48,071 nt of DNA from Flavobacteriales bacterium (GCA_022402535.1 JAKRSD010000003.1:1-48071); one strand, 5' to 3'. Positions 29,647-34,784 are shown, counted from the first letter of the stretch. The notes: generated from the sequence alone by a model not told the origin. Numbers and translations: made by a program.

Positions 29647-29672
29647 GCTGACAAATTGATAGTATGTTCCGC

Positions 29673-30182
29673 ATGAAAAAAATCATTTTTATTCTTTTGA
29701 CGCTGGTTCCCATGGTGGTTATGGCGCAATCCGGTTTCAAAGTGCCTTCCGTTTCCATTAAAGATGTGAATGGCAATACCGTGTCGTCTGATATGTTCCA
29801 AAACGACGGCAAACCCATGATTATTAATTTTTGGGCAACCTGGTGTAAACCCTGTATTTTGGAACTGAGTACGATTGCCGACGAATACGAAGAGTGGGTG
29901 GAAGAAACCGGGGTAAAACTGATTGCCATTTCAATAGATGATTCAAGAAATACGGCCAAGGTGGCGCCTATGGTAAAAAGCCGGGGTTGGTTATACGAAA
30001 TTTATTTAGACCCGAACGAAGATTTTAAACGGGCCATGAACGTAAACAACCCGCCACATACCTTTGTGGTGAACGGAAAAGGCGAAGTGGTTTGGCAGCA
30101 TATTGCTTACCAGCCCGGCGACGAAAAACAACTCTATGACGTAGTGAAAAAAGTAGCTAAAGGTCTTTCGGTGGATAAGTAA
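29673..30182 (+). CDS. TlpA/ResA-like exported thioredoxin-fold protein
   Basis: From the ATG at 29673 the product has 169 residues: MKKIIFILLTLVPMVVMAQ is a clean signal peptide. An in-frame ATG 9 bp upstream only adds MFR. The active site WATWCKPC (cysteines 58 and 61) is in a thioredoxin fold preceded by VPSVSIKDVNGNTV and followed by VKLIAISIDDSRNTAKVAPMV. The cis-proline region is NNPPHTFVVNGKGEVV. Such proteins reduce periplasmic disulfides, including apocytochrome c CxxCH. It lies close upstream of the cytochrome-like operon. It ends at a strong bidirectional terminator. Confidence 0.92.
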   Translation: MKKIIFILLTLVPMVVMAQSGFKVPSVSIKDVNGNTVSSDMFQNDGKPMIINFWATWCKPCILELSTIADEYEEWVEETGVKLIAISIDDSRNTAKVAPMVKSRGWLYEIYLDPNEDFKRAMNVNNPPHTFVVNGKGEVVWQHIAYQPGDEKQLYDVVKKVAKGLSVDK

Positions 30183-30239: not shown

Positions 30240-30241
30240 TG

Positions 30242-30313
30242 TGGTCCCGCCAAGAATCGAACTTGGATCTAAAGTTTAGGAAACTTCTATTCTATCCATT
30301 GAACTACGGGACC
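30242..30313 (-). tRNA. tRNA-Arg (anticodon CCU)
   Basis: The minus strand folds into a full cloverleaf of 72 nt. The acceptor stem is GGTCCCG/CGGGACC. The D stem is GTTC/GAAT. The anticodon stem is GAAGT/ACTTT with loop TTCCTAA (anticodon CCT). The T arm is CCAAG-TTCGATT-CTTGG, and the discriminator base is A. It decodes AGG. The 3' CCA is not encoded (CAC follows). It ends 2 bp from the terminator stem at 30204-30239. Confidence 0.95.
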
Positions 30314-30378: not shown

Positions 30379-30386
30379 TACCTTTG
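30379..30386 (+). promoter_or_regulatory. Promoter -7 box for the OB-fold/cytochrome/YceI operon
   Basis: TACCTTTG matches TAnnTTTG exactly, 40 nt before the ATG at 30427. It is the only such box seen ahead of the five-gene unit. Confidence 0.5.
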
Positions 30387-30426: not shown

Positions 30427-30861
30427 ATGAAAAAATATAAATACATCCTATTGGCCTTGCTGGTTCTGGGTATTGCCGGTGCCGGTATCTATGGCTACCG
30501 CTTATACAATAAGCCCCACCGGGGTATAGCTGATGAAAAACCGGCCTTTACCCTTACCGATAAAGAACTGGCCGATTCCTTTGAGGGCGATGCCGCCGCA
30601 CAACACCAAAAACTCAACAATCAGGTGATTGTGGTTTCGGGAACGGTAAAAAAAATGCAGGAAGAAAACGGCTTTACTTCCCTTAGCATGGATCCGGGTG
30701 GGGAGTATGTGATTTCTGTAACCCTGGATGAAAAAGAAACCGCAAAACCCGAAGCCGGAAAAACAATTTCCGTGAAAGGATTGTATGTAGGACATTTGGA
30801 GGGAGAACCTGATTTTGGTATTCCCGGAGAAATCAAATTGAAAAACGGTTTCATACAATGA
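30427..30861 (+). CDS. Membrane-anchored OB-fold (tRNA_anti-like) protein
   Basis: The 144-residue protein begins with one hydrophobic helix (residues 5-26, ILLALLVLGIAGAGIYGY), most likely a membrane anchor. The periplasmic part fits the tRNA_anti-like OB-fold family. A leading helix (LTDKELADSFEGDAAAQHQKLNNQ) comes first. Then come the strands VIVVSGTVKKM, FTSLSM, VISVTL, a GKTISVKGLYVGHL turn and IKLKNGFI. These proteins occur across Bacteroidota; function is not established, and the tRNA name does not imply tRNA binding. Its TGA overlaps the ATG of the next gene as ATGA. Confidence 0.85.
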   Translation: MKKYKYILLALLVLGIAGAGIYGYRLYNKPHRGIADEKPAFTLTDKELADSFEGDAAAQHQKLNNQVIVVSGTVKKMQEENGFTSLSMDPGGEYVISVTLDEKETAKPEAGKTISVKGLYVGHLEGEPDFGIPGEIKLKNGFIQ

Positions 30862-31562
30862 AAAAAACAGTATTTGGTTTCCTTTTATTGGGAGGCTTAT
30901 CTTTCCTGAGTTCGTGCAGGCATCAACCCGAAAATCCGCCTCCCCCTCCCGGACCTACCAATCCGCCCGTGAGTAATGCCTGCCATCCCGATACGGTGTA
31001 TTTTGTGAATACCATTCTGCCCATACTGAGCAGCAATTGCGCACTTTCGGGTTGCCATGATGCCAATACCATGCAGGATGGGATAAACCTGAGCAGCTAT
31101 GCAGGGATTATGTCCAGCGGGGTCATAAAAATAAGCGATCCGTGGGACAGTGATTTGTTGAAAGCAGTTACGGATAATGATCCCAATGATATCATGCCGC
31201 CCCCTCCGGCCAATCCGCTTACACCGCAGCAGATTAATGCGTTGTACACTTGGATGAGTCAGGGTGCGCAAAATAATGCCTGCCAGTCGGCCTGTGATAC
31301 TACCGTATTTACATTCAGCGGTGCGGTAAGCCCAATCATCCAGTCCCGTTGCGAGGGATGCCACAGCGGAGGAAATCCACAGGGCGGCATTCTGCTGACC
31401 AACTACGACCAGATTAAAGTACAGGCATTGAACGGTAAACTGTTCGGAACGGTGAGCCATGCTAATGGGTTTGTACCCATGCCTTTTGGTGGAAATAAAA
31501 TTCCCGATTGTGAAATTACCCAAATCAAAAAATGGATAGATAATGGCGCACTCAACAATTAA
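30858..31562 (+). CDS. Two-domain c-type-cytochrome-like lipoprotein
   Basis: The 234-residue product has a lipobox ending LSSC (lipid Cys20) and then a proline-rich linker. Domain 1 (about 42-140) has CALSGCH (Cys61, Cys66, His67), an unusual CX4CH, with IMPPPP (Met113) as possible sixth ligand. Domain 2 (about 145-234) has standard CEGCH (Cys165, Cys168, His169) and PMPFGG (Met208). The fold resembles the small Planctomycete-type cytochrome c modules. It would carry haem on the outer face of a membrane. Domain 2 is closely related to the next gene's product. It overlaps both neighbours, 4 bp upstream and 20 bp downstream. Confidence 0.85.
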   Translation: MKKTVFGFLLLGGLSFLSSCRHQPENPPPPPGPTNPPVSNACHPDTVYFVNTILPILSSNCALSGCHDANTMQDGINLSSYAGIMSSGVIKISDPWDSDLLKAVTDNDPNDIMPPPPANPLTPQQINALYTWMSQGAQNNACQSACDTTVFTFSGAVSPIIQSRCEGCHSGGNPQGGILLTNYDQIKVQALNGKLFGTVSHANGFVPMPFGGNKIPDCEITQIKKWIDNGALNN

Positions 31563-31929
31563 AACCTCTTTTTTGCTTGTCTTGGGGCTGTTTACAGGAA
31601 CGCTTTTTATGACGGGCTGCTATTACGATAAAGAAGAACTGCTGTATCCGCCAACCAATTGCGATACCACGGGCGTTACCTATTCGGGAACGGTGCTTCC
31701 CCTATTGCAAAGCAACTGCCTCGGCTGTCATAATCAGGCGGGCGGACAGGGCGGAATCATTTTAGAAGGACATGCCAACACGGTAATCCGGGTGAATGAC
31801 GGTTCGTTGATGGGCGCAATCAGTCATGCGTCGGGCTATTCGCCCATGCCAAAAAATGGTCAAAAACTGGCGGCCTGCGATATTCAGCGGATTCAAACCT
31901 GGATAAATGCCGGCGCCCCCAACAATTAA
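31543..31929 (+). CDS. Single-domain c-type-cytochrome-like lipoprotein
   Basis: The 128-residue product has a lipoprotein signal ending LFMTGC (lipid Cys26). One haem-binding motif is present, CLGCH (Cys59, Cys62, His63), with PMPKNG (Met102) as likely axial ligand. Its framework TYSGTVLPLLQSNC, GGQGGIILEGH, GSLMGAISHASGY, CDIQRIQTWINAGAPNN matches domain 2 of the upstream protein almost position for position. The two therefore come from one duplication. The gene overlaps its neighbour by 20 bp and shares the operon with YceI and the DUF5777 barrel. An electron-transfer role is inferred from the haem motif. Confidence 0.87.
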   Translation: MAHSTIKTSFLLVLGLFTGTLFMTGCYYDKEELLYPPTNCDTTGVTYSGTVLPLLQSNCLGCHNQAGGQGGIILEGHANTVIRVNDGSLMGAISHASGYSPMPKNGQKLAACDIQRIQTWINAGAPNN

Positions 31930-31992
31930 TATTTCCGGTCTGAAATTTGACTATTCCGCAATCATAATTATTAAAACAATAAAAAACGTATC

Positions 31993-32547
31993 ATGAAAAA
32001 ATTCATTCTGTCTGCCGTAGCCGTTCTGGCGCTTGCCGTTTCTACATTTGCCCAGGATAACACGTACTTTACCAAAACGGGCCACATCTCATTTTTCTCT
32101 AAAAGTCCGCTCGAAAACATTGAAGCCCACAACCGTCAGGTTACATGCATGCTGAATCTGAATACGGGCGAAATTGCTTTTAAAGTACTCATCAAATCTT
32201 TTGAATTTGAAAAGGCCCTGATGCAGGAACACTTCAACGAAAACTACATGCATTCTGAGAAATTTCCCAAATCTACATTTGACGGGAAAATTGTAAACCT
32301 GAAGGACATCAATTTCTCCAAAGAGGGCGTGTATGAAGCCAAAGTAGAAGGGACGCTTGAAATTCACGGCGTGAAAAAGGAAATTAAAGAAACCGGAAAA
32401 ATTGAAGTGAGCAAAGGAAAAATCACCACCAAATCGGTGTTTTTTGTTGCCCTGAAAGATTACAACATCAAAAACGATAAAATCGAAAATATTGCCGAAA
32501 ACATTCAGATTACCGTGGATGTAAAAATGGAACCTTATAAGAGATAA
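31993..32547 (+). CDS. YceI-family periplasmic protein
   Basis: The 184-residue product has a signal peptide (MKKFILSAVAVLALAVSTFAQ). The mature YceI domain is a lipocalin-like barrel that in known structures holds an isoprenoid such as a polyprenyl quinone. Family marks are GHISFFSKSPLENIEAHNRQV, the FEKALMQEHFNENYMHSEKFPKSTFDGKI segment split over two strands, GTLEIHGVKKEI and NIQITVDV. Here it follows two haem lipoproteins, so a quinone-related redox role is attractive but inferred. It is 63 bp downstream of the previous stop and 12 bp before the DUF5777 gene. Confidence 0.92.
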   Translation: MKKFILSAVAVLALAVSTFAQDNTYFTKTGHISFFSKSPLENIEAHNRQVTCMLNLNTGEIAFKVLIKSFEFEKALMQEHFNENYMHSEKFPKSTFDGKIVNLKDINFSKEGVYEAKVEGTLEIHGVKKEIKETGKIEVSKGKITTKSVFFVALKDYNIKNDKIENIAENIQITVDVKMEPYKR

Positions 32548-32559
32548 TCGCTTCTGCCT

Positions 32560-33504
32560 ATGAATTCTTGGAAAACTCGCTACACATTTTGCCTATTCAT
32601 TTTAGTATTCAGCATTCCCTTCAGCGGATATTCGCAGGGCCTGCTGGATGAACTGGAGAAAGAAACCGAAAAAGACGCCCCCAAAAGAGAGCCTGTTTCG
32701 GCCACTTTTAAAGGAACCCGTTTGATTAACGGTCATTCGGTGGAAATGCCGGCCAAAGGAGAACTGCTGTTCATTATTTCTCACCGTTTCGGTAAACTGA
32801 GTACGGGCTTTTCTGAACTTTTCGGATTAGACCAAGCGACTATCCGCTATGGTTTTGAATATAGTCCGACGCATTGGCTCAATATCGGGGTGGGGCGAAG
32901 TACCTATATGAAAACGTACGATGGTTTTATTAAAGCGCGGGTACTGAGGCAGAGTAAAGGCAAAAAACCCATTCCGATTACGATGGTTTTGTTGGCAGGA
33001 AGCAGTATTCATTCCCTGAAATGGCAGGATACAAACCGAAAAAATTATTTCACCTCGCGGATGGATTATTACTATCAGATTATGATAGCCCGCAAGTTTA
33101 CCGACCGCTTCAGTTTGCAGTTCATGCCTTCTATGGTGCATAAAAATCTGGTAACCAGGGCCAATGAAAGCAATGATATTTTTTCGCTGGGTATTGGCGG
33201 GAGGTACAAAGTTTCGAACCGGGTAGCCATCATGGCCGAATACCACTGGCTGGTGCCGGGGCAACGGCTTCCTTTTGTAAACGGTTTGCAGCCGCGCAGT
33301 CCATTGGCACTAGGTGTGGATATAGAAACCGGAGGACACATTTTTCAGTTGCAGTTTACCAATGCTCAGGCTATGTTTGAAAAAGGATTTATTGCCGAAA
33401 CCACAGGAAATATTCTGAAAGGCGATATCCATATCGGATTCAATATTACCCGTACATTTTCGTTTAGAAAATTTGAACCTAAAAAACGGTCCAAAAAGGG
33501 TTAA
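32560..33504 (+). CDS. DUF5777-family outer-membrane beta-barrel protein
   Basis: The 314-residue protein has a signal peptide ending SGYSQ. FKGTRLINGHSVEMPAKGELLFIISHRFGKLSTG follows (with no break), then the LFGLDQATIRYGFEYSPTHWLNIGVGRS pattern characteristic of DUF5777. The rest is alternating amphipathic strands (KARVLRQ, ITMVLLAG, YYYQIMIARKF, FSLQFMPSMVH, RVAIMAEYHWL, IHIGFNITRTF-like), consistent with a barrel of about 12-14 strands. It closes the operon OB-fold, two cytochromes, YceI, barrel. It probably forms the outer-membrane part of that system; transported or bound molecules are unknown. Confidence 0.88.
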   Translation: MNSWKTRYTFCLFILVFSIPFSGYSQGLLDELEKETEKDAPKREPVSATFKGTRLINGHSVEMPAKGELLFIISHRFGKLSTGFSELFGLDQATIRYGFEYSPTHWLNIGVGRSTYMKTYDGFIKARVLRQSKGKKPIPITMVLLAGSSIHSLKWQDTNRKNYFTSRMDYYYQIMIARKFTDRFSLQFMPSMVHKNLVTRANESNDIFSLGIGGRYKVSNRVAIMAEYHWLVPGQRLPFVNGLQPRSPLALGVDIETGGHIFQLQFTNAQAMFEKGFIAETTGNILKGDIHIGFNITRTFSFRKFEPKKRSKKG

Positions 33505-33557: not shown

Positions 33558-33581
33558 TAAGTGAATATTATAATTTCGCTT

Positions 33582-34784
33582 ATGAACACCTTTACTTTTT
33601 CCCGCATTTCTTTTTTTCTTGGAGTATTTACTCTGCTGATTTTGGGCATTCCTTTTTCTAACTACGCCCAAACTTTTGCCATTGGCGAAGCCACATTTGA
33701 ATGGCCCGACCCCGACCGAAACAATCGAAATGTAAATATCAAAGCCTATTATCCGGCTACTTCGGCGGGCGCAAGTGCAACGCCCGCAGCCGGCACCTTT
33801 CCTGCTGTGGCCTTCGGTCATGGGTTTGCCATGAGTTATACCGCTTATCAAAATGTATGGGAATATTATGTGCCTAAAGGATTTATTTTTCTGATGGTGG
33901 ACATGGAAAACGGCTTCAGCCCTGTTCATGAGGAATTTGGGAAAGATATTTTGTTTACGGGTAAAGAATTTAAAAACCGTTCTGAAAACAACAACGGATT
34001 TTTATTGTATCAAAAACACAACGGCAGAACAGCCCTGATGGGACATTCCATGGGAGGTGGTGCCAGCGTGTTGGGTGCTTCTTTTGATCCTACTTTTCCG
34101 GATGCTGTATTAGGTTTTGCCTCCGCAGAAACCAATCCCTCCGCTATAGCTGCCGCTTCATCGGTTACGGCTCCTTTTCTGATGTTTGCCGGTTCGGGCG
34201 ATGCCGTAACGCCACCTGCCAATCATCAGGTGCCTATTTATAATGCGCTCGCTTCGCCCTGCAAAATATTGGTAAATATAACAGGCGGCGCACACTGTTA
34301 TTACGCCAATACGGATGTCGCCTGTGATTTTGGTGAATTGGTTTCGGGTGGAAATATTACCCTTGACAGAGCCGAACAGCAGGAAATCGTGAACAGCATC
34401 ATGCTGCCTTACCTGAATGTATTGTTGAAAGATGAGTCTAGTACTACAGAACTGTCTTCGGCGCTAAACCAATCGGGAATTACAAGTACCGTAGGCTGTA
34501 ACCTCAGTGTCGAAAATGCCGAATTAGAGTCAGGTTTTTCAATATTCCCTAATCCTGCATTTTCACAAATAAATATACAATATGAAATTACCGAGATTTC
34601 AGATATAACCATTAGCCTTTACAATATTTCCGGACAGCAGCTTGCTCAAACATTTATTGGAAAACAAACTCCCGGAAGTTATACTGTAGAACAATCCCTG
34701 GGTAACATAAAACCGGGAATGTACTATTATACACTGAACATAAATGGGGCGGTTGTAAGTAAACCGCTGATGGTATTACGTTAG
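33582..34784 (+). CDS. T9SS-secreted alpha/beta hydrolase, polyesterase/chlorophyllase-like
   Basis: From ATG 33582 the product has 400 residues. A signal peptide ends SNYAQ near residue 31. The alpha/beta-hydrolase core has PAVAFGHGFAMSY (oxyanion region), the nucleophile Ser156 in GHSMGGG, Asp207 in GSGDAVTPP and His238 in GGAHCYY, so the triad is complete. Cysteines at 227, 239 and 248 may form disulfides. The C-terminal part (about 318-400, FSIFPNPAFSQINI ... PGMYYYTLNINGAVVSKPLMVLR) is a T9SS type A sorting domain. The GHSMGGG core with a T9SS tail resembles the group that includes Bacteroidota polyester hydrolases and chlorophyllase-like enzymes; the substrate is not readable from sequence. 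Confidence 0.85.
   Translation: MNTFTFSRISFFLGVFTLLILGIPFSNYAQTFAIGEATFEWPDPDRNNRNVNIKAYYPATSAGASATPAAGTFPAVAFGHGFAMSYTAYQNVWEYYVPKGFIFLMVDMENGFSPVHEEFGKDILFTGKEFKNRSENNNGFLLYQKHNGRTALMGHSMGGGASVLGASFDPTFPDAVLGFASAETNPSAIAAASSVTAPFLMFAGSGDAVTPPANHQVPIYNALASPCKILVNITGGAHCYYANTDVACDFGELVSGGNITLDRAEQQEIVNSIMLPYLNVLLKDESSTTELSSALNQSGITSTVGCNLSVENAELESGFSIFPNPAFSQINIQYEITEISDITISLYNISGQQLAQTFIGKQTPGSYTVEQSLGNIKPGMYYYTLNINGAVVSKPLMVLR

Follow-up and report, generated by a model that had tools for sequence, protein, structure and literature searches.

A compact cluster of five genes (Table 1) lies between positions 30,427 and 33,504 of a 48,071-nucleotide stretch of DNA from a Flavobacteriales bacterium (GCA_022402535.1, JAKRSD010000003.1:1-48071), the whole of which we refer to as the window. 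The predicted products are two haem lipoproteins with three haem sites between them, a lipocalin of the YceI family, a 12-stranded barrel of the DUF5777 family and an OB-fold protein, and our comparison of loci shows that this set has been kept together across Bacteroidota. We tentatively propose that the cluster encodes an outer-membrane redox relay with a step at the cell surface, a reading that we regard as possible rather than probable. The term 'dedicated redox module', used in a preliminary description of this DNA, is a fair inference, since the neighbourhood is conserved, all of the products appear to be exported, anchored or barrel proteins of the envelope, as that description had it, and the haem sites are conserved together with their axial Met.

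The strongest evidence for a functional unit comes from gene neighbourhoods. The DUF5777 family occurs in 88 of 100 relatives and, in a wider sample of 392 Bacteroidota genomes, in 162. We examined the neighbourhoods of 113 DUF5777 genes found in relatives and of 80 named GTDB loci (including Salibacter, Hymenobacter, Niastella, Pontibacter, Sinomicrobium, Yeosuana and Aquimarina), all picked by similarity to DUF5777 and not by neighbourhood. The preliminary description had allowed that the families might not co-occur in other genomes; instead, both YceI and cytochromes are enriched beside DUF5777. Genes within four positions of DUF5777 encode YceI in 141 of 1439 cases, compared with 12 of 1074 further away, and the corresponding counts for cytochrome genes are 255 of 1439 and 6 of 1074. 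Within the window's class, 51 family-level groups have a DUF5777 locus, with YceI nearby in 42, a cytochrome in 45 and both in one locus in 34. YceI and a cytochrome are found together in 103 of 195 DUF5777 operons, 57 of which also have the OB-fold protein. Outside the window's class, a comparison of coordinates shows the YceI and DUF5777 genes side by side in at least 23 genomes, and most of 20 further loci, mainly from other classes and selected by a YceI or DUF5777 match, contain the same core. Because gene order is permuted among loci and the genes for the OB-fold and diheme proteins are present in some and absent from others, the core conserved across Bacteroidota consists of the monoheme cytochrome, YceI and DUF5777. 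The OB-fold gene (67 of the 195 operons) and the diheme gene are frequent accessories that are often missing from the cluster. No gene fusions between the cluster families were seen in the first 195 loci. Genes downstream of the cluster in some relatives were considered as candidate cytochrome maturation genes and rejected; their Pfam matches (DUF4271, HemD, RNase P and YidD) mark them as syntenic backbone.

Both lipoproteins have CXnCH motifs with a conserved axial ligand, as expected of c-type cytochromes. The invariant Cys, Cys and His of each haem site and the invariant Met-Pro downstream (Table 1) are consistent with His/Met haems. The preliminary description of two CxxCH lipoproteins holds for the second, monoheme protein; the first is predicted to be diheme, with one CX4CH and one CXXCH motif, and is therefore not a CXXCH-only protein. 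The cytochrome-family match of the monoheme protein, alone among those of the cluster, falls below the Pfam cut-off. The closest solved relative of the diheme protein by sequence is FoxE (E 1.5e-5), with the hydrazine synthase alpha subunit also near. Its structural model (pLDDT 80.7, pTM 0.56) aligns over 91 residues with one haem domain of FoxE (Z 10.4, 24% identity), and weakly in the second domain, compared with a Z of 2.3 against ordinary c6-type cytochromes; a Foldseek search with this model gave no significant match. Genes for CcmF- and CcmC-like cytochrome maturation proteins are present in the window genome. A TlpA/ResA-like thiol-disulfide oxidoreductase of possible relevance to cytochrome maturation is encoded upstream of the cluster (29664-30182, + strand), with a divergent tRNA gene in between.

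The lipoproteins also differ in their tethers, which are conserved in both families although such tethers are normally variable. In the diheme protein the predicted lipidated residue is Cys20, followed by the tether CRHQPE (family consensus CKH[E/D]P), and in the monoheme protein it is Cys26, with the tether CYYDKEELLYP (consensus CYYDxEEELYP). Three or more acidic residues at positions +2 to +8 occur in 91 of 175 monoheme proteins, compared with 2 of 59 diheme proteins. Acid-rich signals after the lipoprotein Cys flip lipoproteins to the surface in Bacteroidetes; this lipoprotein export signal (LES) has been defined experimentally, sits directly after the +1 Cys and has the optimum C-X-K-(D/E)2, with KKEVEEE in MucG (PMC5080379). 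The monoheme tether CYYDKEE is acid-rich, conserved and close to that of MucG, yet it differs from the minimal LES motif.

The YceI protein exceeds the PF04264 cut-off (23.7 bits), and its profile matches the solved YceI structures 5ixg, 1y0g and 5ixh. It appears to be a secreted, lipocalin-like protein of a divergent Bacteroidota type, and isoprenoids such as ubiquinone-8 are bound by relatives described in the literature (PMC8981238, PMC9113575). Two further YceI proteins in the window genome are more canonical (171 and 96 bits, compared with 52 for the cluster copy). The OB-fold protein matches tRNA_anti-like (PF12869) at 28.0 bits (Pfam cut-off 23.5), a family also matched by 19 of 20 aligned relatives, and is predicted to be periplasmic with an N-terminal membrane anchor. 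For DUF5777, a profile match above cut-off and an AlphaFold2 model of a 12-stranded barrel (pLDDT 91.6) identify a predicted outer-membrane beta-barrel, whose closest folds are the 12-stranded porins KdgM, FapF and NanC (Z 17.3-18.4). Its less hydrophobic face, taken as inward from loop length, strand parity and hydrophobicity and not from coordinates, has the conserved residues R76, R96, K125, R127, K179, R215 and K217 together with D121, E227 and E256. The pore looks polar and basic, and would seem better suited to small anions than to quinones. The outward invariant residues H75, H260 and R298 were considered as a haem site and set aside, since they resemble membrane-interface or barrel-signal residues more closely.

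Additional evidence pointing to the cell surface comes from proteins with a type IX secretion system (T9SS) tail. At 26 loci, a gene for a haem-motif protein with such a tail lies on the same strand as DUF5777 and no more than four genes from it; most of these proteins have a choice-of-anchor V/Reeler domain. Of the T9SS-tailed proteins encoded at the loci examined, 29 of 56 near DUF5777 have a haem motif, compared with 1 of 43 elsewhere (Fisher p 2.4e-8, a guide only, as related loci are not independent). At one locus from the window's own family, L129, a T9SS-tailed haem protein occupies the position of the window's diheme lipoprotein, and at least one such protein is encoded in the window genome, unlinked to the cluster. 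The cell-surface involvement implied by the preliminary description is partly supported by the LES-like tethers and the T9SS-tailed haem proteins at these 26 related loci. The proteins at these loci (L034, L100, L106, L126 and L129 among them) are possibly surface cytochromes of their own kind. A 514-aa protein encoded directly after the cluster at L155:8381-9922 and L208:4621-6162 has an N-terminal cytochrome domain and a weak T9SS tail, the latter being its sole Pfam match; it also has His motifs that we take to be reminiscent of copper monooxygenases.

Further support for a redox role comes from DUF5777 paralogues at four other loci (L086, L101, L105 and L107), whose operons also encode NrfD, 4Fe-4S and EB_dh proteins but no obvious catalytic subunit; these are quinol-oxidising electron-transfer modules. 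In the 392-genome sample, COX1 is present in all 162 genomes with DUF5777, and DUF5777 in none of the 16 genomes without COX1. A second YceI gene adjoins the cluster at L152, L195 and L200, together with genes for a Reg_prop/Y_Y_Y sensor histidine kinase and a LytTR response regulator, which suggests signal-controlled expression there.

We propose that YceI would hold a menaquinone-like isoprenoid in the periplasm and connect the quinone pool or the lipid phase to the haems, and that the diheme lipoprotein would pass electrons on. The acid-tethered monoheme lipoprotein would face the cell surface, where T9SS-secreted haem proteins might join it in some genomes. The DUF5777 barrel would be the outer-membrane partner, either passing a small, probably anionic, solute or marking the site of lipoprotein display, and would hold no haem wire. 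Overall, electrons would be exchanged between the periplasm and donors or acceptors at the surface. A more specific version, in which haem lipoproteins exported by their signal, by the T9SS or by both are docked on the 12-stranded barrel and served by a YceI-bound quinone shuttle without a multi-haem wire, would be an undescribed form of surface electron exchange specific to Bacteroidota; we think it unlikely.

Several points weigh against the proposed relay. It gives the OB-fold protein no part and leaves the route across the outer membrane unexplained. The polar, basic DUF5777 pore appears unfit for hydrophobic quinones and, judging from strand number, the barrel is probably too narrow for a cytochrome-filled conduit; as a 12-stranded barrel probably lacks room for a cytochrome, a conduit in the style of MtrAB is unlikely. 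The CYYDKEE tether departs from the exact minimal export motif. T9SS-tailed haem proteins are nearby at only 26 loci, only 12 of which have YceI, and there is none in the window cluster. The link between DUF5777 and COX1 is a weak one, confounded by phylogeny, as most COX1-less genomes belong to one family.

The main alternative is an envelope antioxidant system like BcnA/LcoA, which we consider doubtful. YceI would carry a reduced isoprenoid quinone able to quench the lipid peroxyl radicals of the outer membrane; the c-type cytochrome lipoproteins, replacing the cytochrome b561 LcoA, would re-reduce the YceI quinone or remove electrons. Such a role has precedent: the YceI-type protein BcnA and LcoA protect the Burkholderia cenocepacia envelope from lipid peroxyl radicals, and a meningococcal YceI homologue binds ubiquinone-8 (PMC9113575). 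BcnA-LcoA likewise links a YceI gene to a cytochrome in an envelope redox setting. It would also fit that the module is confined to the COX1-bearing genomes of the sample, and that sensor kinase/LytTR or ECF regulators are linked to it at some loci, as in stress systems. However, BcnA-LcoA has a b561 membrane protein, whereas the cluster described here has c-type haem lipoproteins, a barrel and an OB-fold protein; no match to the b561 family was found among the cluster proteins or the neighbours scanned, and no PsrA-like aldehyde reductase was seen in the cluster. An antioxidant role also leaves the outer-membrane barrel, the acid-tethered surface-type lipoprotein and the nearby T9SS haem proteins unexplained, and could be served by the two more canonical YceI proteins of the genome.

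Alternatively, the cluster could process a small substrate by redox chemistry and let it pass, for example iron as Fe(II)/Fe(III), or a small anion. The FoxE-like haem lipoproteins would oxidise or reduce this substrate at the surface, and it would enter through the basic pore of DUF5777. FoxE, a putative iron oxidase of the foxEYZ operon (PDB 5mab), is likewise a diheme c-type cytochrome and is the best match of the diheme lipoprotein in both sequence and fold, and the conserved inward basic residues of DUF5777 are accompanied by fold matches to the acidic-sugar porins KdgM and NanC. We nevertheless find this explanation improbable. The likeness to FoxE covers one haem domain at low identity and is common to hydrazine synthase, so that it speaks to a domain family and not to a substrate. 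FoxE has CXXCH at both haem motifs and is described outside any YceI/DUF5777 cluster (PMC10654088). No foxY or foxZ partner was found among the window genes adjoining the cluster or the neighbours scanned in related loci, and the wide spread of the module in ordinary heterotrophs speaks against a dedicated iron oxidase. Finally, a role in envelope assembly or lipid homeostasis, with lipid moved by YceI and the OB-fold protein, DUF5777 serving as a general porin and the cytochromes incidental, would accord with the known lipid binding of YceI proteins, the porin-like DUF5777 fold and the synteny with hemB, hemD, rnpA and yidD in some groups, itself chromosome backbone, but it is very improbable, given that cytochrome-type genes are the commonest DUF5777 neighbours in the first locus set (91 loci, compared with 73 for YceI) and that their haem ligands are invariant, as would not be expected of incidental passengers.

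The coordinates and strand of all five open reading frames are exactly those of the preliminary description. Overlaps of 4 bp (ATGA) and 20 bp followed by gaps of 63 and 12 bp support a single transcription unit. The promoter proposed earlier fared less well. Its single -7 box, TACCTTTG, is present at 30379-30386, but the pattern TANNTTTG occurs 46 times in the window compared with 50 +/- 6 expected by chance, and at that frequency it is no evidence of a promoter. A sigma-70-like site was looked for upstream of the operon and none was found. The separate gene directly downstream encodes a PETase-like/dienelactone-type alpha/beta hydrolase with a T9SS sorting domain.

Table 1. Genes, predicted haem sites and flanking features of the five-gene cluster, in window coordinates.
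Feature	Position	Strand	Details
tRNA-Arg, divergent, upstream of cluster	30241-30313	-	
Anchored OB-fold protein gene	30427..30861	+	144 aa; Pfam tRNA_anti-like, PF12869
Diheme c-type cytochrome lipoprotein gene	30858..31562	+	234 aa; Pfam cytochrome family
Haem site 1, diheme protein, CALSGCH (CX4CH; C61-x4-C66-H67)	31038..31058	+	C, C, H and Met113-Pro114 invariant in 15 relatives
Haem site 2, diheme protein, CEGCH (CXXCH; C165-H169)	31350..31364	+	C, C, H and Met208-Pro209 invariant in 15 relatives
Monoheme c-type cytochrome lipoprotein gene	31543..31929	+	128 aa; cytochrome family
Haem site 3, monoheme protein, CLGCH (CXXCH)	31717..31731	+	C, C, H and Met102-Pro103 invariant in 26 relatives
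YceI-family gene	31993..32547	+	184 aa; PF04264, 52.1 bits
DUF5777 barrel gene	32560..33504	+	314 aa; PF19089, 310 bits
Alpha/beta hydrolase with T9SS tail, separate gene downstream of cluster	33561-34784	+	

Beyond BcnA-LcoA and FoxE, two groups of known systems bear comparison. Cbp2D and Cbp2E of Cellvibrio japonicus are secreted redox proteins that likewise combine a YceI-like domain, the ubiquinone-8 domain X158, with a c-type cytochrome domain, X183 (PMC8981238, PMC12542752). They differ in being single multidomain proteins with cellulose-binding modules, proposed to feed lytic polysaccharide monooxygenases (LPMOs), with no barrel and no lipoprotein set. In the MtrAB, PioAB and MtoAB conduits, an outer-membrane barrel is likewise encoded with c-type cytochromes. 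There, however, a multi-haem cytochrome sits inside a large barrel, whereas the cluster has proteins with one and two haem sites only and a 12-stranded barrel, and would therefore not form a conduit of this type as far as the argument from size holds.

The preliminary description knew of no described system with this set, and we likewise found no published description of the five genes in the open-access literature searched, which omits most subscription journals, nor any paper there naming DUF5777. A study of Riemerella under iron limitation has a YceI-like gene in its lists but not this cluster. Each family is known and the combination appears to be new: a form of YceI-cytochrome envelope redox system that differs from BcnA/LcoA, Cbp2D, foxEYZ and MtrAB in the features compared, with a modest chance of being categorically new. 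DUF5777 is common in Bacteroidota, with no described role in the literature searched, and its link to cytochromes and YceI gives it a testable redox function. If the surface reading is true, many environmental Bacteroidota could exchange electrons extracellularly without multi-haem wires.

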